This document shows, in pieces, positions 25,517 through 41,221 of a stretch of 41,221 bases of DNA. The DNA is from an uncultured Bacilli bacterium (GTDB lineage Bacteria > Bacillota_I > Bacilli_A > RF39 > UBA660), in NCBI GenBank assembly GCA_944350365.1, contig CALVOU010000001.1, forward strand, positions 78,814 through 120,034, written 5' to 3'. The stretch's first letter is position 1; the number at the start of each line of letters is the position of its first letter. The notes under the pieces are model-generated. The model was given only the letters and a program-made list of their open reading frames with translations. It was not told the DNA's origin and searched no databases. The translations under genes were made by a program, and so were the position numbers.

Positions 25517-25537
25517 AAAAATAGTTATCTTTTTTTT
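25508..25537 (+). terminator. Terminator overlapping the mbl stop
   Basis: GATAACTA (25508-25515) and TAGTTATC (25522-25529) around GAAAAA, then T8. It separates the chromosomal core block from the agr region. Confidence 0.9.
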
Positions 25538-25594
25538 GCTTCTAAATAGGAAAAATATGGTAAAATGTCTAAAAAAGGGGCCAAAAAAAAGAGG

Positions 25595-27726
25595 TGGTAA
25601 TATGATCAATTATATTATTTATGAAGATGAAGTAGAGTATAGAAAAAAGTATATTTCAATAATCTTAAAATTAAGAGGGAAAGAACAAGAAGGCTATCGA
25701 ATAATTGAGTTAGATAAATATGATGAGAAAACGAAAAAACAATTAGATGAAACACTAGGAAAGAAAATCTATATCTTTGATATTGAAGTACCAGGAAAAA
25801 GTGGCTTGGATCTAGCGAAAGAGATCAGGGAATCAGGAGATTGGGAAAGCCAAATCATTGTGGTAACAACGCATGAACAACTAAGAACCGCAAGTTTTAC
25901 TTCAAGATTATTGATGTTAGATTTTGTTAGTAAATATTATGATTGTGAAAATAGGTTGAAAGAAAGTTTAATCGTCGCATTCGATATTTTAACGAAATAT
26001 AAAGCACTAACTTTTATGAACGAGGGAGAATTGTATCAAATTCCGTATCGAGATATTTTGTATATAGAAAAAAGCGTAAAAGAAAATGGGTGTATTATAG
26101 TAACAAAGAAAGAAACAATCGAGGTAAAAGAACCATTAACCAAATTAGAAGAGAGATTAGATAGTAGATTTTATAAAACACATAGAAGATGTATAGTGAA
26201 TTTACATAATGTAAAACGATTTGATTTTAATCAAGGATTGATTAAATTTGAAGAACAAGAAATTGATATGTTAGCAAGAAATAATCGAAAAGACTTAAGG
26301 GATAAACTGTGTGCCAGTCAAATAGGAAACGATAATACCGAAGGGAATGAGCCACCCAATAAAGATGAAGGAGTAAAGTTAATAGAAGTGTATTGTGGAG
26401 TGTGAAATAAGGGATGAATAGATGAAAGATATGGAAATAATAATAAGTACTATTATAATGTCTTGTTCACTTTTTGCAGTAGGAGATATATTACTAAATA
26501 AATCAGAAAAAGTAAATTTAAAAAATTTTGCAATAACCGTAGGGATAAGTTTAGTGATAATTTTAATTAATTTAGTTAGTGAAAGTATAGTTGATAATGT
26601 TTTAAAAATCTTAATTATATTTATAAGTTACATAGGATATTATAAATTAGTATTTAACGAATCATTGACAAAATCCATGTTAATGAGCTTCATAATGTAT
26701 CTAATATTTTTTATAAGCGAAGTAATAGTAGTATTTATAATGTATTTTACATTTTTCTTATTACAAAACAATAATGCAGCAGAGTTAAAAAACAGTATTA
26801 TCATAAATCTAATAATTTGCTTATTGGGAATAGCGGTATCAATAAGATTTAAAAAGGAATTATCAATGATAATAGAGAAAATAAATAGTGACAAAAGAAC
26901 AATATTTATAATAGCAATAATAGTCCTATTGGCATTAGCAATATTATTTAATAAAACACCTGTTAATGAATTAGAATTAAATATTAATTTTATATTAACC
27001 ATTTTGTTAATGATTTTGTTTTGTATAGTTGGATTTATTTTAATTAAGCAAAAATACGATGTTGATAAAATGAACGATGAGTATAAAAAGTTAGCAAACT
27101 ATTCTCAAATAACAGAAGGAGTATTAGAGGAGTATAGATTAAATTTACATGAAAGTAGAAACCAATTAATTATTATTAGAAATATGATTTCTACTACAAA
27201 GAAGAAAGAACTAGAAGAGTATGTAAATAACTTAATTGACGCAACAGAAGTAAATAAGTATAGATGGATAAATGAATTAAAATATATTCCAATTCCAGAG
27301 TTAAAAGGGTTTATTAACTTTAAGTTAATGGAAATGAGTAACAAAAAAATCGATATTGAGATTCATATCGAAAGAAAATTAAAAGATTCCAAAATGAAGA
27401 AACTAAAAATCAAAGATAGAGGAGACTTTTATAGTATTATAGGAGTATTTTTAGACAATGCAAAAGAGGCAAGTCTGGAAAGTAAAGAAAAGAAAGTTGC
27501 GTTAGAAATGTATGAAATCAATGATGAGATTCATATTATCATAGCGAATACTTATAAAGGGAAAATAGACATTGATAAGATTAATGAATATGGGTACAGT
27601 AGTAAAGGAAAAAATAGAGGAACAGGATTACATTTAGTAAATAAAATCGTTGAAAGAAATAAATTGTTTGAACGAGCTACTTCAAAAATGGATGAATATT
27701 TTGTCCAAGAGTTGGTTATACATTTA
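25595..27726 (+). repeat. Direct repeat copy 1 (agrA-agrC)
   Basis: This 2.1 kb segment recurs at 29139-31270 with a constant offset of 3544 nt and no indel. I see no base difference from 25602 to 27668, then two silent changes (27669 and 27678), and the sequences diverge at about 27727. Similarity fades just upstream of the ribosome binding site. Confidence 0.95.
25602..26405 (+). CDS. AgrA-type LytTR response regulator, copy 1
   Basis: 267 aa. The receiver domain has acidic pair E8-D10 region and phospho-acceptor D60 (IYIFDIEVPGKSG). The C-terminal LytTR DNA-binding domain spans about 140-240 (GELYQIPYRDILYIEK...KTHRRCIVNLHNVKRF). An unusual ~30-residue tail after it (from about 238, GNDNTEGNEPPNKDEG) is not part of typical AgrA. 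Start at ATG 25602 is set by GAGGTGG; the upstream in-frame extension to 25536 crosses the promoter. agrC follows after 16 nt. LytTR regulators bind 9-bp direct repeats with a 21-22 bp period; such a pair is present before agrB in this window. Confidence 0.92.
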   Translation: MINYIIYEDEVEYRKKYISIILKLRGKEQEGYRIIELDKYDEKTKKQLDETLGKKIYIFDIEVPGKSGLDLAKEIRESGDWESQIIVVTTHEQLRTASFTSRLLMLDFVSKYYDCENRLKESLIVAFDILTKYKALTFMNEGELYQIPYRDILYIEKSVKENGCIIVTKKETIEVKEPLTKLEERLDSRFYKTHRRCIVNLHNVKRFDFNQGLIKFEEQEIDMLARNNRKDLRDKLCASQIGNDNTEGNEPPNKDEGVKLIEVYCGV

Positions 27727-27741
27727 GATACAATAAAATAA
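26422..27741 (+). CDS. AgrC-type sensor histidine kinase, copy 1
   Basis: 439 aa. Six to seven hydrophobic segments (about 5-25, 38-52, 61-75, 88-115, 127-141, 160-176, 189-208) form a polytopic peptide-receptor domain. The dimerisation helix carries likely phospho-acceptor H243 (NLHESRNQL). The HATPase domain has the N box FLDNAKEAS (N346) and the G box NRGTGLHLVNK (about 398-408). This matches the HPK10/AgrC group that senses cyclic peptides. It is translated just after agrA. It uses the Ile codon ATA far more than the housekeeping genes around it, suggesting acquisition by transfer. Confidence 0.9.
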   Translation: MKDMEIIISTIIMSCSLFAVGDILLNKSEKVNLKNFAITVGISLVIILINLVSESIVDNVLKILIIFISYIGYYKLVFNESLTKSMLMSFIMYLIFFISEVIVVFIMYFTFFLLQNNNAAELKNSIIINLIICLLGIAVSIRFKKELSMIIEKINSDKRTIFIIAIIVLLALAILFNKTPVNELELNINFILTILLMILFCIVGFILIKQKYDVDKMNDEYKKLANYSQITEGVLEEYRLNLHESRNQLIIIRNMISTTKKKELEEYVNNLIDATEVNKYRWINELKYIPIPELKGFINFKLMEMSNKKIDIEIHIERKLKDSKMKKLKIKDRGDFYSIIGVFLDNAKEASLESKEKKVALEMYEINDEIHIIIANTYKGKIDIDKINEYGYSSKGKNRGTGLHLVNKIVERNKLFERATSKMDEYFVQELVIHLDTIK

Positions 27742-28926: not shown

Positions 28927-29080
28927 AAATTTTAGAATATTAGCACACCTGAACATCTAGAAAAAGATATGAACATGAAACTATAAGAAATCCTTATAGA
29001 GCCCCTAGTCCCTAGCCACTTAAAATCTAAATATTGCAAAAAAGACCCTTTGTGCTCACCCCACAGAGGGTCTTTTTTGC
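28927..29080 (+). ncRNA. Candidate small regulatory RNA beside agr
   Basis: About 154 nt between a consensus promoter and a strong terminator, with no credible open reading frame (only ATGAACATGAAACTATAA). It has an internal hairpin CTATAAG-AAATC-CTTATAG (28981-28999), a C-rich unpaired stretch GCCCCTAGTCCCTAGCC (~29001-29017), and a terminator hairpin whose 7-nt loop is CUCACCC. The loop is complementary to GGGUGA, the Shine-Dalgarno sequence before the DUF1934, pta, symporter and fba genes here. C-rich loops pairing to Shine-Dalgarno sequences are how S. aureus RNAIII, also agr-linked, acts. Function is inference; expression is untested. Confidence 0.6.
29036..29080 (+). terminator. Very strong terminator with exposed CUCACCC loop
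   Basis: GCAAAAAAGACCCT (29036-29049) pairs perfectly with AGGGTCTTTTTTGC (29067-29080). An inner TGTG/CACA stem closes the loop CTCACCC (29055-29061). T6 is in the right arm. Confidence 0.9.
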
Positions 29081-29138
29081 AATTGAAAAGAAAGTGTGAA
29101 AATATAATAAAATCAAAATGGTATTTAAAGAAAAGAGA

Positions 29139-31270
29139 TGGTAATATGATCAATTATATTATTTATGAAGATGAAGTAGAGTATAGAAAAAAGTATATTT
29201 CAATAATCTTAAAATTAAGAGGGAAAGAACAAGAAGGCTATCGAATAATTGAGTTAGATAAATATGATGAGAAAACGAAAAAACAATTAGATGAAACACT
29301 AGGAAAGAAAATCTATATCTTTGATATTGAAGTACCAGGAAAAAGTGGCTTGGATCTAGCGAAAGAGATCAGGGAATCAGGAGATTGGGAAAGCCAAATC
29401 ATTGTGGTAACAACGCATGAACAACTAAGAACCGCAAGTTTTACTTCAAGATTATTGATGTTAGATTTTGTTAGTAAATATTATGATTGTGAAAATAGGT
29501 TGAAAGAAAGTTTAATCGTCGCATTCGATATTTTAACGAAATATAAAGCACTAACTTTTATGAACGAGGGAGAATTGTATCAAATTCCGTATCGAGATAT
29601 TTTGTATATAGAAAAAAGCGTAAAAGAAAATGGGTGTATTATAGTAACAAAGAAAGAAACAATCGAGGTAAAAGAACCATTAACCAAATTAGAAGAGAGA
29701 TTAGATAGTAGATTTTATAAAACACATAGAAGATGTATAGTGAATTTACATAATGTAAAACGATTTGATTTTAATCAAGGATTGATTAAATTTGAAGAAC
29801 AAGAAATTGATATGTTAGCAAGAAATAATCGAAAAGACTTAAGGGATAAACTGTGTGCCAGTCAAATAGGAAACGATAATACCGAAGGGAATGAGCCACC
29901 CAATAAAGATGAAGGAGTAAAGTTAATAGAAGTGTATTGTGGAGTGTGAAATAAGGGATGAATAGATGAAAGATATGGAAATAATAATAAGTACTATTAT
30001 AATGTCTTGTTCACTTTTTGCAGTAGGAGATATATTACTAAATAAATCAGAAAAAGTAAATTTAAAAAATTTTGCAATAACCGTAGGGATAAGTTTAGTG
30101 ATAATTTTAATTAATTTAGTTAGTGAAAGTATAGTTGATAATGTTTTAAAAATCTTAATTATATTTATAAGTTACATAGGATATTATAAATTAGTATTTA
30201 ACGAATCATTGACAAAATCCATGTTAATGAGCTTCATAATGTATCTAATATTTTTTATAAGCGAAGTAATAGTAGTATTTATAATGTATTTTACATTTTT
30301 CTTATTACAAAACAATAATGCAGCAGAGTTAAAAAACAGTATTATCATAAATCTAATAATTTGCTTATTGGGAATAGCGGTATCAATAAGATTTAAAAAG
30401 GAATTATCAATGATAATAGAGAAAATAAATAGTGACAAAAGAACAATATTTATAATAGCAATAATAGTCCTATTGGCATTAGCAATATTATTTAATAAAA
30501 CACCTGTTAATGAATTAGAATTAAATATTAATTTTATATTAACCATTTTGTTAATGATTTTGTTTTGTATAGTTGGATTTATTTTAATTAAGCAAAAATA
30601 CGATGTTGATAAAATGAACGATGAGTATAAAAAGTTAGCAAACTATTCTCAAATAACAGAAGGAGTATTAGAGGAGTATAGATTAAATTTACATGAAAGT
30701 AGAAACCAATTAATTATTATTAGAAATATGATTTCTACTACAAAGAAGAAAGAACTAGAAGAGTATGTAAATAACTTAATTGACGCAACAGAAGTAAATA
30801 AGTATAGATGGATAAATGAATTAAAATATATTCCAATTCCAGAGTTAAAAGGGTTTATTAACTTTAAGTTAATGGAAATGAGTAACAAAAAAATCGATAT
30901 TGAGATTCATATCGAAAGAAAATTAAAAGATTCCAAAATGAAGAAACTAAAAATCAAAGATAGAGGAGACTTTTATAGTATTATAGGAGTATTTTTAGAC
31001 AATGCAAAAGAGGCAAGTCTGGAAAGTAAAGAAAAGAAAGTTGCGTTAGAAATGTATGAAATCAATGATGAGATTCATATTATCATAGCGAATACTTATA
31101 AAGGGAAAATAGACATTGATAAGATTAATGAATATGGGTACAGTAGTAAAGGAAAAAATAGAGGAACAGGATTACATTTAGTAAATAAAATCGTTGAAAG
31201 AAATAAATTGTTCGAACGAGCCACTTCAAAAATGGATGAATATTTTGTCCAAGAGTTGGTTATACATTTG
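29139..31270 (+). repeat. Direct repeat copy 2 (agrA-agrC)
   Basis: Second copy of the 2.1 kb unit at 25595-27726, same orientation, offset 3544. The flanks differ completely: another promoter region before it and the agrD terminator after it. Confidence 0.95.
29146..29949 (+). CDS. AgrA-type LytTR response regulator, copy 2
   Basis: 267 aa, identical in sequence to copy 1 at 25602-26405, including D60, the LytTR domain and the unusual C-terminal tail. The ribosome binding site has one change (GAGATGG instead of GAGGTGG), which could lower translation. The promoter region is different: a TATAAT at ~29103-29108 behind the sRNA terminator, so transcription of the two copies is probably not the same. 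The longer in-frame start at 29050 lies within the sRNA terminator and is rejected. Confidence 0.92.
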   Translation: MINYIIYEDEVEYRKKYISIILKLRGKEQEGYRIIELDKYDEKTKKQLDETLGKKIYIFDIEVPGKSGLDLAKEIRESGDWESQIIVVTTHEQLRTASFTSRLLMLDFVSKYYDCENRLKESLIVAFDILTKYKALTFMNEGELYQIPYRDILYIEKSVKENGCIIVTKKETIEVKEPLTKLEERLDSRFYKTHRRCIVNLHNVKRFDFNQGLIKFEEQEIDMLARNNRKDLRDKLCASQIGNDNTEGNEPPNKDEGVKLIEVYCGV

Positions 31271-31285
31271 AATAGTATAAAATAA
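29966..31285 (+). CDS. AgrC-type sensor histidine kinase, copy 2
   Basis: 439 aa, identical to copy 1 except the last few residues (HLNSIK against HLDTIK). H243, N346 and the G box are unchanged, so both kinases should sense the same peptide. It converges on agrD-agrB, which lie on the opposite strand. The hairpin after it has its T run on the minus strand only, so plus-strand transcripts may run on as antisense to agrD and agrB. Confidence 0.9.
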   Translation: MKDMEIIISTIIMSCSLFAVGDILLNKSEKVNLKNFAITVGISLVIILINLVSESIVDNVLKILIIFISYIGYYKLVFNESLTKSMLMSFIMYLIFFISEVIVVFIMYFTFFLLQNNNAAELKNSIIINLIICLLGIAVSIRFKKELSMIIEKINSDKRTIFIIAIIVLLALAILFNKTPVNELELNINFILTILLMILFCIVGFILIKQKYDVDKMNDEYKKLANYSQITEGVLEEYRLNLHESRNQLIIIRNMISTTKKKELEEYVNNLIDATEVNKYRWINELKYIPIPELKGFINFKLMEMSNKKIDIEIHIERKLKDSKMKKLKIKDRGDFYSIIGVFLDNAKEASLESKEKKVALEMYEINDEIHIIIANTYKGKIDIDKINEYGYSSKGKNRGTGLHLVNKIVERNKLFERATSKMDEYFVQELVIHLNSIK

Positions 31286-31455: not shown

Positions 31456-32067
31456 TTATTTTGAAGCATTGATTACATAATTTTTATAATTATTATACGG
31501 TAAATTAAATAATTTATATATATATGGATTAATCAAGGCTCCCTCTATTAGCATCGCACTAGCGAGAGAATTTTGAAGAAAAGTATCTTTAGTAATAAAG
31601 ATCAAAGCAATATATATAGAAGAAATTAAAATCGTACATATTTTGTAAAATAACCTACGCTTTTTATGGATTAATGGTCTTTTAACAGTATCTGCAGGTG
31701 CGTACAATATAAAATTAATCATGCACACAACAGATATTGCCACTAGAAGGTAATTGGGTAACACCAAGGATTTGCAGAAAAAAGGTACTAGTAAAAAAGT
31801 AATACTAGAAGAAACCCAACACATCCAGCTTTTGGTTGCATGGAGACCAAATCCGGTTAATCTTAAGAAATTAAACAAAACAAGTAAGATGACAGATTCC
31901 TTAAATATACCAAGTAATAAAGAAATTCCTAAAATGACAACTAACTTAGTTATAGATAGATATGTTGCCTCGAGACCATATCTAATCTCATCTAACCTAT
32001 CCTCATCATAATTTGGATATATCTCTTTTACCATTTTTAGAGATCTTCCTAAGAAAAAACCTTTCAA
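31456..32067 (-). CDS. agrB: AgrB-type peptide-processing membrane protease
   Basis: 203 aa polytopic cysteine protease that removes the AgrD tail and forms the thiolactone ring. With the TTG start, the catalytic pair is H76 and C83 in GFGLHATKSWMCW, with the same 7-residue spacing as His77/Cys84 of S. aureus AgrB. About five to six membrane helices are seen. Start TTG 32067 is chosen because AGGAGGGA lies 6-8 nt before it and no other candidate has one; ATG 32097 overlaps the promoter -10. It is the first gene of a two-gene agrB-agrD operon facing agrC copy 2. Confidence 0.93.
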   Translation of the reverse strand: MKGFFLGRSLKMVKEIYPNYDEDRLDEIRYGLEATYLSITKLVVILGISLLLGIFKESVILLVLFNFLRLTGFGLHATKSWMCWVSSSITFLLVPFFCKSLVLPNYLLVAISVVCMINFILYAPADTVKRPLIHKKRRLFYKICTILISSIYIALIFITKDTFLQNSLASAMLIEGALINPYIYKLFNLPYNNYKNYVINASK

Positions 32068-32095
32068 AATTCTCCCTCCTAACAATGCCAAATAC

Positions 32096-32164
32096 ACTAT
32101 ATCACTTACCTTTATTAAAAAGTAGAAATTTGTCGTGAAATGTCGAAAATTGCTTGTGAACGGT
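32096..32164 (-). promoter_or_regulatory. agrBD promoter with a pair of LytTR (AgrA-type) boxes
   Basis: On the minus strand, ACCGTTCAC (32164-32156) and ACATTTCAC (32143-32135) are direct repeats 21 bp apart with a 12-bp spacer, the geometry of AgrA and VirR sites. A TATAGT -10 lies at 32101-32096, 33 nt after the second box, with no good -35, as expected for an activator-dependent promoter. A related inverted arm ACCGTTC lies at 32194-32200 on the plus strand. Confidence 0.7.
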
Positions 32165-35474: not shown

Positions 35475-37967
35475 ATGGATTTATTAAAAAAATTATTCGA
35501 TCACGAATATAAAGAACTAAAGAAATTTCATCGTCAAGCTGACCAAATTGTCGCTTTAGATGAAGAAATGCAAAAATTATCGGATAAAGAATTACAAAAT
35601 AAAACGAATGAGTTTAGAGATAGATTAGAAAAAGGAGAAACTCTAGAAGATATTTTAGTTGAAGCTTTCGCAGTAGCTAGAGAAGCTTGTTTCAGAGTAA
35701 TTGGAGAAAAACCATTCTATGTTCAGATTTTAGGTGCTTTAGCTATTCACTATGGAAATATTGCGGAAATGAAAACTGGTGAAGGTAAAACATTAACTTC
35801 AGTAATGCCTGCTTATTTAAATGCCTTGCCTGGTGAAGGTGTACATATCATCACTGTCAATGAATACTTAGCTGATCGTGATGCTAACTGGATGGGCCAA
35901 ATTCATAAGTTCTTAGGATTGACAGTTGGAATTAATTTACGTGAACTATCACCAAAAGAAAAACAAGAACAATATGCTTGTGATATTTTATATTCGACAA
36001 ACAATGAAATTGGATTCGATTATTTAAGAGATAACATGGTTATCCGTAAAGAAAATAGAGTCCAACGTCCACTAAATTTTGCGATTATCGATGAAGTCGA
36101 CTCAGTATTAATTGATGAAGCTCGTACACCACTTATTATTTCTGGTGGAGAAATGAAAAGTGCTAATTTATACATGGATGCAGATCGTTTAGCCAAATCA
36201 CTAAAGGAAGATGAATATGTTTATGATGAAAAAACAAAAAATGTTTCCCTTAGTGAAGAAGGTGTTAAAAAAGCGGAAAAGATGTTCCGCTTAGATAACT
36301 TATATGGCTTAGAAAATTCAGAATTAGTTCATTACATTAATCAAGCATTAAGAGCGAATTATTCTATGCATAAAGATGTAGACTATGTTGTTCAAGACGG
36401 TGAAATTATTATCGTTGATCAATTTACAGGACGTCTAATGAAAGGTCGTGCTTATAGTGACGGTCTTCATCAAGCAATTGAAGCTAAAGAGGGCGTAAAA
36501 ATTAATCAAGAAACCAAAACTTTAGCCACAATCACATTCCAAAATTTATTCAGAATGTATAAAAAACTATCTGGAATGACCGGTACAGCTAAGACAGAAG
36601 AAGAAGAATTTAGAAATATCTATAATATGTATGTTATTGAAATACCTACGAATAAACCAGTCATTCGTATTGATAATCCTGATCTTATGTTTTCTACTAA
36701 AGCCGGAAAATACCGCGCAATTGTAAAAGAAATTGAAGAACGATACAAAAAAGGTCAGCCAGTCTTAGTAGGTACTATAGCTATTGAGACTAGTGAGTTA
36801 ATCAGTAACTTGTTAAAACAAAAGAAAATTCCTCACGAAGTATTGAACGCCAAAAACCATGCACGTGAAGCAGAAATTATTGCGAAGATTGGTCTTGGGA
36901 AATCAGTAACTATTGCTACCAACATGGCTGGACGTGGAACAGATATTAAACTAAGTGACGAGGTAAGAGAATTAGGTGGTTTATGCGTAATCGGTACAGA
37001 GCGTCACGAATCACGTCGTATCGATAATCAGTTACGTGGACGTTCTGGTCGTCAAGGGGATCCTGGATTTACTCAATTCTATGTATCAATGGAAGATGAA
37101 TTAATGGTTCGTTTCGGTTCTGATAGAATTAAAGTAATGATGCACAATTTAGGATTTAGTGAAGATCAAGCAATCAAGAGTAAAACCTTTACCAAGGCAC
37201 TATCTTCAGCTCAAGCTCGTGTAGAAGGAAATAACTTTGATATTCGTAAACAACTTCTTCAATATGATGATGTCATGAACAATCAAAGAGAAATCATGTA
37301 TGGAAGAAGAAATGAAATCCTAGATAGTGAATCAATTCACGAAACAGTATTAAAGACAATTAAAAATCATATTTCAGATTTAGTAAATTCTCATCTTTAT
37401 CCAGAGGGAAGATTAACTAATGATGATGTTAAAGAAATCGTTGAATTTGCGAATGAGAATCTAATTAATCAAGATATCGACAAAGAAGAAATAGATAATA
37501 AATCTCCTGAAGAGATGATTGAATATATTACGGATATTGTTACACATGAGTATGAAGAAAAATTAAGAGATATTCCCGAAGAAGTAAAAGATGAATTTGA
37601 AAAAGCAATCAGTCTAAATGTAATCGACCACTATTGGACTGAACACATCAATACAATGTCTCACTTAAGAGAAGGAATTTATTTAAGAGGTTACGGTCAA
37701 GAAGATCCACTTCGTGCTTACACAATGGAAGGCTTTGAATTATTTGATAAGATGATGCAAAAAATTGACCACGATGTAACTATCATGTTAATTAAGGCAG
37801 AAATCAGAAGAAATATTGAAAGAAAAGAAGTATCAAAAACCAAAATTACGAACGATGGCGGTAAAGAACAAGCTAAGAAACAACCAAAGAGAGTTCAAAA
37901 AGTAGGTAGAAATGATCCTTGTCCATGTGGCTCAGGGAAGAAATATAAACAATGCTGTGGTAAATAA
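35475..37967 (+). CDS. secA: Preprotein translocase ATPase SecA
   Basis: 830 aa motor of the Sec export pathway. Walker A is in [17 protein letters not shown] (~residue 100), DEAD-type motif in [17 protein letters not shown] (~210), helicase motifs in GTIAIETSE and NMAGRGTDI, and [20 protein letters not shown] in the scaffold. The C-terminal SEC-C zinc tail [18 protein letters not shown] is intact and should bind SecB-like partners or ribosomes. Length is standard. It has a good promoter and AGGAG ribosome binding site and a terminator after the stop. Confidence 0.98.
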
Positions 37968-38012
37968 CTCGTAAAGTCCTATAAATAAAGGGAAAACACG
38001 AGTTTTTCTTTT
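37968..38012 (+). terminator. Terminator after secA
   Basis: AACTCGT at the secA stop pairs with ACGAGTT (~37998-38004) across a longer loop that adds GTCC/GGGA pairing, followed by TTTTCTTTTT. Confidence 0.8.
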
Positions 38013-38027
38013 TCTAAAAATTACTCC

Positions 38028-38059
38028 AAAAATGACTTTAGATCAGTTTTAGATCATCA
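38028..38059 (+). repeat. Left copy of imperfect direct repeat flanking the HEPN gene
   Basis: AAAAATGACTTTAGATC followed by AGTTTTAGATCATCA. It matches the sequence at 40781-40812 at about 28 of 33 aligned positions. It contains TTTAGATC twice, about 11 bp apart. Confidence 0.8.
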
Positions 38060-38146: not shown

Positions 38147-40648
38147 ATGGAAATAAATTACAATGATACACTTCAAAAAAGGATGCTTAATTGGATATAT
38201 TATGGTGACAACATGAATCCATTTTATAGCTGTGTAATTTCATATTTAATAGAAATTGGTGGTTATAAGTTAAGCAAAGATGGAAGCGAATATGAACAAA
38301 TAAAAAAATTAGAAAATATATTAAAAACAAATCCCAAAATATTTAAAGAAATCCTTAAAACACTTACACAGAATGGATTTTTAGAAGATTTAAGTTTTAG
38401 ATATGAATATAGTAATAAGTTTTATAAAAATCGTGGAGATGAAAATCACTTTAGTATATTAAAATTTAAAATAATAGATGGCAAATTATATGCATACGAT
38501 TTAGTTACAAGTAGAGAAAATAGAAAATATGTAGAAATTAAACAGATAAATAATATGGATGTTGTTGAGCTTATTACATTATTAAAAAATGATGGATATA
38601 CTGATGAAGAGGCAGAAGTTTTAATACAACATAAAGAAGTATTACAAGCCTATGGAATAGATGGCAAGTCATATAATATTACTTTGTTAAATGATAACAA
38701 TTTAATTAATATGCAATTAGATGATCCAAATATTAGGTTAGATTTTTCTATCTTTTTCAAAGAACATTCCAAATCTAATTTGTTGGATAAAACGAACTTT
38801 AATCTAAATATAGAATCAAGCGATACCAATATTTCATATGGATATGATAGTAATTTAAAGTTATTGTCTTTAATGCATGGATTATGTAAAAGTCAAAAAG
38901 ACTTATCACTTTTTGAAGGTGTATACAAGAAGAATGTTGAGTTGTTGGGAAATGGTGGTAATACAGATACAAATATAGATTGGATGTTTATGAGTAGTTT
39001 CTTTTTACTAAATCAAGAAGAAAAGAATACGTTACCTGATTACCTATATTTAGATTTGGCACGAAAACTAAAATTGGTTAATCCTAGAGGTGCAATGTGC
39101 ATTTTTATGGACGAAAACAACGAAGAAACATCTTATGCTAATGATGTTAATCGTTCAAATTATGGTTGCAATGATTACATATTTACTGATGGAAATCTTG
39201 ATTGTAAAATGCTATTTCATGCTATACGAAATGCTTTAGCTCATTCATCATATGAAGTTATAGATAAAAATTATATTCGTATTTATGGGTATAATGATGA
39301 AAATGTAATGAATTGTAATTTTAAAATTCAAAAGAACATGATAATCGAATTCATTAATAAGTTATCAAATTACAATGCTTTTGGTAATATTTTTCCAATA
39401 TGTACATTGGAGAATCCAAACTATGATAATGCTCCAATTCAAACAAAAGAAGATTTAAAATCATATTTAGAGAGTATAGTTGTTTCAGATATTACTGATG
39501 TAAAATATCATGATTTAGATACTTTAAAGAAGCTACAAATGTATGTATCTTATTTAGCCCAGAAAGATAACACAGATATAAATGAAAATGTGGATTATAA
39601 GATGTTAGAAATGTTTGAATATGATTATGAGAGAAAAATATATTATTTAAAAATGCAATTACAAAATCCTATGACTCGAAAAACAAAGCTAATAGATTCT
39701 GTTGCAAAATCACAACTTAAATATTTCATGGATTATAAATTAGAAGAACAAAAACTATCTGAATCACAAATAAGTAAGATCATTGATCATATAGGACAAA
39801 TAGCTGATACTTTTTATAATCATAGTGCTGTTAATCAACATGAAATTATCACCGAACTAATAAGAAATGAATTGAATCCAAGTAGAAACATTTCAATGAT
39901 TATAGAAGATATTGTTAAAACAAGTAGTAAATCAGATGGTGCAATTATGGATATGCTGAATGATACTTCTACAAAATATATAGATTATGATAAGGTAATA
40001 AAAGCAACTGTTATATCATATTTGAATAATATACTTTTATATAATTATAATGAGAAAAAAGTAGACTTAAGTGGATTGGATTTTTCAGGTTTGAAAATTG
40101 ATGTTGACTTTGAGGATTTAATTTCTAAAAAGAATAAAAGAATAGATGATTTGAAAAGAGAAAACAGAAATATTTATAAGTCTAATAAGAATATGAAGAA
40201 AAGGCTTGGAGATATTACTATACAATTAGAAAGAGTGACTGATGAGAATCAAAAAGCTAGATTAACCGAAGAAAAACAAAGATTAGAAGCTATTCTTAGT
40301 CAAGATGATGGCTCTAGACAAGAAAAAAACAGTATTGAAATGACTGCTTTGCAGGAAGATTTAGAAGATTTAAAAAATAGAAGAGTGGATAATTCATACA
40401 TATTAGATCATTTGAGAAATTCTTTAGCACATGGAAATATATTCTTCTCAAATACAATTAATTTAAATGACATAGGAGATTTGGAAATAACATTTATAGA
40501 TTATTATCCTGATACAACAGATGAGTCATTTAAAGGAACAATCAAATTTAGGGAATTATTAACTACATTAAGTGATGAAAAATTTATTGATAGTCTTTTT
40601 TCAAAAATAAATGAGCGAACTATTGATAATCAACCTAAGAAAAGTTGA
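38147..40648 (+). CDS. Dual-HEPN domain protein, predicted ribonuclease (defence type)
   Basis: 833 aa. I do not recognise a named family. Two HEPN active-site motifs of RNxxxH type are present: R361-NALA-H366 (FHAIRNALAHSSYE) and R757-NSLA-H762 (DHLRNSLAHGNIF). Each is followed by a similar pattern of beta strands and a final helix, so the protein looks like two HEPN modules in one chain, able to form one composite ribonuclease site. A charged coiled coil (about 660-745) precedes the second motif. HEPN proteins with this motif are mostly RNases in abortive infection, toxin and CRISPR systems. ATG 38147 follows GGTGG. It uses AT-rich codons (many ATA, AAT) unlike secA, and lies between direct repeats, suggesting acquisition by transfer. 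No antitoxin or CRISPR array is visible beside it. Confidence 0.75.
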   Translation: MEINYNDTLQKRMLNWIYYGDNMNPFYSCVISYLIEIGGYKLSKDGSEYEQIKKLENILKTNPKIFKEILKTLTQNGFLEDLSFRYEYSNKFYKNRGDENHFSILKFKIIDGKLYAYDLVTSRENRKYVEIKQINNMDVVELITLLKNDGYTDEEAEVLIQHKEVLQAYGIDGKSYNITLLNDNNLINMQLDDPNIRLDFSIFFKEHSKSNLLDKTNFNLNIESSDTNISYGYDSNLKLLSLMHGLCKSQKDLSLFEGVYKKNVELLGNGGNTDTNIDWMFMSSFFLLNQEEKNTLPDYLYLDLARKLKLVNPRGAMCIFMDENNEETSYANDVNRSNYGCNDYIFTDGNLDCKMLFHAIRNALAHSSYEVIDKNYIRIYGYNDENVMNCNFKIQKNMIIEFINKLSNYNAFGNIFPICTLENPNYDNAPIQTKEDLKSYLESIVVSDITDVKYHDLDTLKKLQMYVSYLAQKDNTDINENVDYKMLEMFEYDYERKIYYLKMQLQNPMTRKTKLIDSVAKSQLKYFMDYKLEEQKLSESQISKIIDHIGQIADTFYNHSAVNQHEIITELIRNELNPSRNISMIIEDIVKTSSKSDGAIMDMLNDTSTKYIDYDKVIKATVISYLNNILLYNYNEKKVDLSGLDFSGLKIDVDFEDLISKKNKRIDDLKRENRNIYKSNKNMKKRLGDITIQLERVTDENQKARLTEEKQRLEAILSQDDGSRQEKNSIEMTALQEDLEDLKNRRVDNSYILDHLRNSLAHGNIFFSNTINLNDIGDLEITFIDYYPDTTDESFKGTIKFRELLTTLSDEKFIDSLFSKINERTIDNQPKKS

Positions 40649-40649
40649 T

Positions 40650-40670
40650 GAAGCATTTATGCTTCTTTTT
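40650..40670 (+). terminator. Terminator after the HEPN gene
   Basis: GAAGCA (40650-40655), loop TTTA, TGCTTC (40660-40665), then T5. Confidence 0.85.
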
Positions 40671-41221
40671 CTATGTTTAATTTCTAGGTAGAAGTGGTAA
40701 AAATGCTAAAAAGTGTAATGCTAAAATATGCCTTTAAGCCTCAATATAAAAGGAAATAAGGGATTTATCTAAATATGCGTAAAAATGCTTTAGATCCATT
40801 TTTAGATCATTAAGACACCAAAAAAGAGCATTTCTGCCCATTATTTCTTTAAGTTATTAATAACATCCATAGTTTCATTTAAAGCACTTTTAAATAGATG
40901 TGAAAATTATTTAAATTATATTAATAAAATAAATGACGTAAATTTAAGTGAATCTACCAGTAACTTTAAACGATAATTACACAAGAAAATCTTATCAATA
41001 GTTTTTTATTATAAAATTGATTATAAAATTATAAAAACGATATTAGTTTCTTTCTTTTCATATTGTAATTAAAGTGACTATAATACTTAAATTCCTAATT
41101 AAAATAAGTAAAAAACTTATTTTTTTCATTTAATCATTGATAAGGCTGAGATGAAAAAGTAAACGCAACTTTGAAAAGTTAAATGCAATCTTATATATGA
41201 TTTAATGTTGATAACAAATAA
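40671..41221. other. Gene-free AT-rich tail of the window
   Basis: No convincing gene on either strand. It holds the right direct repeat (40781-40812) and a minus-strand terminator-like hairpin (GGGCA-GAAA-TGCTC, 40839-40826, with T6 beyond). Just before that hairpin is a 21-codon open stretch ending in a stop (40906-40841, minus, ...ALNETMDVINNLKK) that could be the remnant end of a decayed gene. A hairpin AATAAGT-N5-ACTTATT with T run is at 41103-41127. Near 41155-41193 two imperfect ~19-bp copies of AAAAGTnAAnGCAA occur in tandem. No CRISPR-type spaced repeats are present. Confidence 0.6.
40781..40812 (+). repeat. Right copy of imperfect direct repeat flanking the HEPN gene
   Basis: AAAAATGCTTTAGATCC followed by ATTTTTAGATCATTA, matching 38028-38059 with single-base gaps. 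The same paired TTTAGATC is present. Confidence 0.8.

Follow-up and report, generated by a model that had tools for sequence, protein, structure and literature searches.

What does a single protein with two HEPN-type ribonuclease motifs do, and how did its gene come to stand alone behind secA at the end of a contig from an uncultured Bacilli bacterium? The stretch of DNA analysed here (the window, 41,221 nt) stops 573 bp past this gene because the contig ends there. The gene (38147..40648, + strand) is the window's final one, an intact open reading frame encoding an 833-residue protein (P0001), and a relative of equal length and 85% identity in another genome supports its integrity. As the earlier note had read them, two motifs of RNxxxH form lie in the one chain: RNALAH at residues 361–366 (39227..39244, +) and RNSLAH at residues 757–762 (40415..40432, +). 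The description of the gene as solitary and AT-rich also held, with a GC content of 24–26% in its region against about 30–35% for most of the window. A terminator-like hairpin recognized in the sequence (GAAGCATTTATGCTTC, followed by T-rich sequence; 40650..40665, +) lies inside the block shared with locus L009 (38057–40670), which comprises the gene, about 90 bp upstream of it and the terminator.

Elsewhere in the window, two agr-type sensor kinases (26422–27741 and 29966–31285) are each paired with a LytTR-type regulator (25536–26405 and 29050–29949), near AgrB (31456–32097, −). The two kinases have identical lengths and Pfam scores, and the paired genes represent a quorum-sensing locus that was duplicated either in the genome or during assembly. 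The last ~75 bp of the contig (41145–41221) match sequences at or near the ends of several other contigs from this genome (C24, C12, C11, C27, C54 and C43), a repeat at which the assembly probably broke.

Two conserved HEPN motifs in a divergent family

Within the host's order, a search returned the 85% relative and four distant ones (25–36% identity to P0001), with both motifs in all of them. Profile searches extended the set to 21 aligned proteins of 468–833 residues, 14–85% identical to P0001 and for the most part only 14–36% identical. The only invariant columns in this alignment are R361, N362, H366, R757 and H762; N758 and G763 come close. Iterated searches brought the total to 24 tandem proteins including P0001 (23 further ones), all within the host's GTDB family. 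Several members were matched at one end only, yet carried the other motif outside the matched part, and the later finds L111–L113, likewise matched at one end, proved to be tandem proteins as well. Given the family's own composition, an R[ND]xxxH motif is expected by chance 0.057 times per protein; both motifs occurred in 21 of 21 members and in the three later ones. Strong conservation of the two motifs, on which the earlier reading depended, is therefore borne out, the R and H of each being invariant across the 21 aligned homologues. The motifs are separated by 289–396 residues, and the second lies 63–120 residues from the C terminus. Profiles built on the two domains matched each other with 96% probability, across only 21 columns around the motif. 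Clustering at a BLAST E of 1e-6 splits the tandem set into six groups, the outlying ones linked mainly through their motif regions, so that the set may be one superfamily instead of one close family.

Matches to the family were found in about 6–11% of sampled genomes of the order (23 of 385 and 13 of 122, counts that include a few single-HEPN or spurious matches). Beyond the host's GTDB family there was only one weak match, with an interrupted frame. Among 17 genomes of the genus, the P0001 gene was present in the host genome (G000) only, and a related type, named after contig C31, in G000 and G174. G000 thus has two family members (L049 and L093), because this second type is present at another locus. 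The C31 gene (L089:6648–8267, −) encodes a divergent tandem-HEPN protein of 539 residues with the motifs RNYIAH and RNAIVH, and a NUDIX gene neighbours both it and its close relative in G174.

The family searches also matched single-HEPN proteins, at L017, L040 and L043. Those at L017:1327–1917 (−) and L043:1408–1998 (−) are 196 residues long (RNSLAH and RNALAH, respectively), lie beside prfA–hemK-like genes and are possible single-domain relatives of the tandem family; Pfam gave no match for the L017 protein. At L031:1380–2961 (−) a family member is present as two open reading frames (265 and 254 residues) with one motif each, reflecting either a frameshift or decay in this copy or an error in sequencing. 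Matches at L016 and L041 were not tandem-HEPN genes.

Profile searches of P0001 against Pfam, NCBIfam, PADLOC and PHROGs gave nothing past cut-off or significance, and no HEPN model matched the protein itself, in keeping with its earlier description as a member of an unnamed family. Its sequence matches in the PDB were coiled-coil noise or unrelated. Among the 21 members, weak matches were obtained to RTas-HEPN (10 of 21, best 4.2e-4), CARF-HEPN (6 of 21) and pEK499_p136 (3 of 21), and the Cas13e model matched the second motif of P0007 at 1.6e-4 (20.9 bits, with the cut-off at 175). These HEPN matches span E values of 1e-4 to 1e-2 and stay under curated cut-offs where such exist. All weak matches located at the motifs were to HEPN models, touching the first motif in one protein (P0009, residues 114–146) and the second in others (for example P0005, residues 431–468). 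Because all profile matches are weak, the HEPN assignment rests on motif conservation together with the consistent direction of the matches. Both RNALAH and RNSLAH fit the superfamily motif (R-x4–6-H, with N, D or H after the R), and the family has N or D directly after the R, a trait of classical HEPN RNases (PMC3710099).

Structure prediction was informative mainly for the coiled coil. A single-sequence AF2 model of full-length P0001 was unusable (pLDDT 35), and a model of residues 596–833, built with its one 85% relative (mean pLDDT 62), was confident in the coiled coil only. That model places an approximate HEPN2 domain at residues 605–825 (39959..40621, +), split by a coiled-coil hairpin at about residues 656–743 (40112..40375, +), which matched coiled-coil structures. 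The coiled coil that the earlier note had placed ahead of the second motif is thus confidently predicted, at ~655–750 with pLDDT mostly 75–93. An approximate HEPN1 domain at residues 230–410 (38834..39376, +) was delimited from low-confidence secondary structure and from alignment to shorter relatives that start nearby, with a predicted layout of helices, motif, strands and helix. Predicted helices end at both motifs in models that are poor outside the coiled coil. The similar pattern claimed to follow each motif appears as a helix end, three strands and a helix, and is plausible yet weakly shown because the models for both motifs are of low confidence. Foldseek and VIA searches with the 596–833 model, which tested mainly the coiled coil, returned chiefly proteins of coiled-coil or helical type, with no HEPN chain among them; a HEPN fold is still compatible with this outcome.

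A probable cassette at the secA 3′ end

The anchor of the locus is secA (35475..37967, +; Pfam SecA domains with E down to 1.4e-126), and the P0001 gene is bracketed by the 3′ terminus of secA on one side and a decayed duplicate of this terminus on the other. The left boundary repeat (37936..38057, +) comprises the secA 3′ tail, a terminator and two direct repeats of 11 bp starting at 38037 and 38048, where TTTAGATC sites are found; the right one (40696..40810, +) has TTTAGATC at 40789 and 40801. The alignment of the two scores 67; the best of 500 shuffles reached 56 (0 of 500 attain 67) and the best of 296 other window segments 40. The repeats said earlier to flank the gene are accordingly real, as a direct repeat, now diverged, in which the secA 3′ end is contained. 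A direct repeat of the target gene's end on both sides, as in integrative elements, is thus present in decayed form.

Related genomes point to the same site. The final 39 bp of secA (37929..37967, +) recur 1.3–8.7 kb downstream of the gene in five of them (L051, L083, L085, L087 and L088), and the other loci above 4 kb that were examined had no copy of this tail away from secA. The cargo between secA-tail copies is unrelated and includes a GNAT protein, a membrane protein and an aminoacyl-tRNA-synthetase-like open reading frame, among others. In a sister species (G859), whose secA is 98% identical over the compared part, the site matching that of P0001 holds a DUF3644-HEPN/EC042_2821 endonuclease-like gene (L083:7593–8627, −) between two secA-tail copies. 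This is also a HEPN gene at the secA-linked site, but it belongs to another sequence family than P0001, with its HEPN domain fused to an endonuclease-like domain. The 11-bp spacing of short direct repeats recurs behind secA tails in several genomes. Of the tandem-HEPN relatives, P0003 sits behind a second secA-tail copy at L051 and P0002 behind a decayed one at L009; the member at L029 lies beside prfB. A second secA fragment of 384 residues is present at L085 (134–1288, −).

The secA-tail copies downstream of secA (L083, L085, L087, L088, L051 and L009) suggest that insertions form an array at the 3′ end of secA, and we infer from these sequence comparisons that small cassettes are inserted there site-specifically. 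No integrase was found within the P0001 cassette; in G891 the start of a tyrosine-integrase arm-binding domain (an Arm-DNA-bind_4 open reading frame) lies directly behind secA, at the contig end. Literature on secA as an integration site yielded nothing specific. With a bounded cassette at secA and other HEPN cargo at the same site, the context is patchy, mobile and defence-like.

Known HEPN systems and competing explanations

No conserved partner gene was found beside the tandem-HEPN relatives, and the view of the gene as stand-alone is upheld by this neighbour analysis. CRISPR-like repeats were absent from the window, which ends 573 bp downstream of the gene, and from the surroundings of 12 relatives. 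The abiF RNA (RF03085) had no match in the window or at 18 relative loci at a permissive threshold, and the Rfam scan of the P0001 and relative loci returned nothing relevant. No MNT nucleotidyltransferase was seen among the scanned upstream genes, the neighbours of relatives being judged by eye, and McrB GTPase or helicase genes were absent from the 9 upstream open reading frames scanned. On another contig (L119, G000:C40) the host carries a CRISPR locus with cas1, a cas2-like open reading frame, a Cas9-like one of 1366 residues, one of 224 residues in the csn2 position and about 30 repeats.

Single-chain HEPN dimers have precedents. Twelve uncharacterised AlphaFold clusters with an intramolecular HEPN dimer have been described, two of them beside CRISPR arrays (Cas13an, 429–577 residues), and for Cas13 an origin was proposed in which two HEPN genes, closely related and associated with defence, became fused, AbiD/F being the nearest kin (Yoon et al. 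2024, PMC12165695). A single-chain HEPN dimer without CRISPR has thus already been reported, and the idea is less new than the earlier note assumed. The ten non-CRISPR clusters resemble P0001, when compared by description only, in having two HEPN domains per chain and no array, and by analogy the P0001 family may work like this class. P0001 shares the two-HEPN chain of Cas13 (type VI) at the motif level. Like Cas13an and Cas13e, the family has two R-x4-H HEPN motifs, and its short relatives are Cas13an-like in size and motif layout; unlike them, it has no array in cis and no qualifying profile match and, for P0001, is found in a patchy single-gene cassette. No Cas13 model exceeded its cut-off, P0001 having no match and the P0007 hit being the best of any member. 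AbiD/AbiF (Abi_2) is a defence-associated HEPN RNase, as P0001 probably is, and likewise has an RN-x3-H motif, but AbiD/AbiF has one HEPN per chain, an Abi_2 domain and the RF03085 RNA antitoxin, none of which was found for P0001; across the family, the Abi_2 domain (PF07751) appeared in one of 21 members, at an E of 0.18 that is too weak to assign it. The CoCoNuT type III-A protein CnuE resembles P0001 in carrying coiled coils as well as two HEPN domains on one chain (PMC11090510), but its second motif is RxH (RNSLAH in P0001) and it is encoded in McrBC-helicase operons.

With moderate confidence, we read P0001 as a mobile single-gene tandem-HEPN RNase, its domains pairing in cis, that is probably anti-phage. 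Besides the poor structural models, the weakness of all HEPN profile matches and their absence for P0001 itself, two observations count against this: the searched viral contigs, phages and plasmids contained no tandem-HEPN relatives, and several relatives lie among housekeeping genes and not in a defence island. The same two observations, with the restriction to one GTDB family, are what a housekeeping or stress RNA-processing enzyme outside conflict systems would lead one to expect. The patchy distribution even inside the genus, the very fast divergence that keeps catalytic residues alone and the hotspot location argue against such an enzyme, which we consider rather unlikely. A slightly better chance, though still a small one, goes to an addiction or toxin module, in which a HEPN RNase toxin with an unrecognised antitoxin would keep the secA-linked cassette stable. 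The gene is the single cargo of a bounded mobile unit, and HEPN proteins are commonly toxins (Anantharaman 2013, PMC3710099); the lack of a conserved partner, of MNT and of a relevant Rfam match speaks against the module, as do several relatives with no space for an adjacent RNA (the L053 gene overlaps both neighbours, and gaps are often <100 bp in others).

Guide RNAs made elsewhere, for instance from the host's Cas9-type CRISPR array, could in principle make P0001 an RNA-guided Cas13-like nuclease. The short members (468–574 residues, motifs near both ends) resemble Cas13an (PMC12165695), one member matches Cas13e at its second motif and the host has the cas1 and Cas9-like locus with its repeats. 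However, the Cas13e score is far under its cut-off, CRISPR-like repeats are absent from the window and from around 12 relatives and no link is visible between the array contig and the P0001 gene, which makes this a very improbable explanation. Less probable again is a reading in which the HEPN domains no longer cut RNA and serve only to bind it: the motif has disappeared from certain HEPN families (PMC3710099), but here neither motif shows any change at R or H in relatives as distant as those above. A broader proposal places the family on the Cas13 side of HEPN evolution, as a lineage of fused HEPN pairs that does without CRISPR, is guide-independent or guided by RNA encoded elsewhere and is carried in one-gene secA-anchored cassettes; it strikes us as improbable, although less so than trans-guided cleavage itself.

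Proposed mechanism and significance

Returning to the favoured reading of a mobile, cis-pairing RNase, P0001 would act as a stand-alone endoribonuclease with two HEPN domains per chain. Most likely the two associate within the chain, so that R361/N362/H366 and R757/N758/H762 together make up a single composite, metal-independent site, as in Cas13, but with no need for a guide RNA. Holding the RNase inactive and sensing a trigger would fall to the N-terminal extension and to the variable region between the domains, which consists of the coiled coil and the middle helices; on release, most likely upon phage infection, the RNase would cleave cellular or phage RNA, and growth or phage production would stop. 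The gene itself would move as the cargo of a small cassette whose insertion point is the 3′ end of secA. We infer the RNase activity, cis pairing, off-switch and defence role, catalysis and pairing on the strength of the HEPN literature (PMC3710099; PMC12165695) and motif conservation. Given that two dozen relatives have retained both motifs despite great divergence, P0001 and its kin are probably a new family of single-protein, Cas13-like, CRISPR-free RNA-cutting defence enzymes.

Diverse fused HEPN pairs without a detectable guide RNA in cis would show what fusion does alone, and would also show whether HEPN pairing in cis arose more than once. In turn, the secA-tail cassettes make it possible to trace one way in which single-gene modules, HEPN genes among them, may be exchanged between uncultured gut bacteria.
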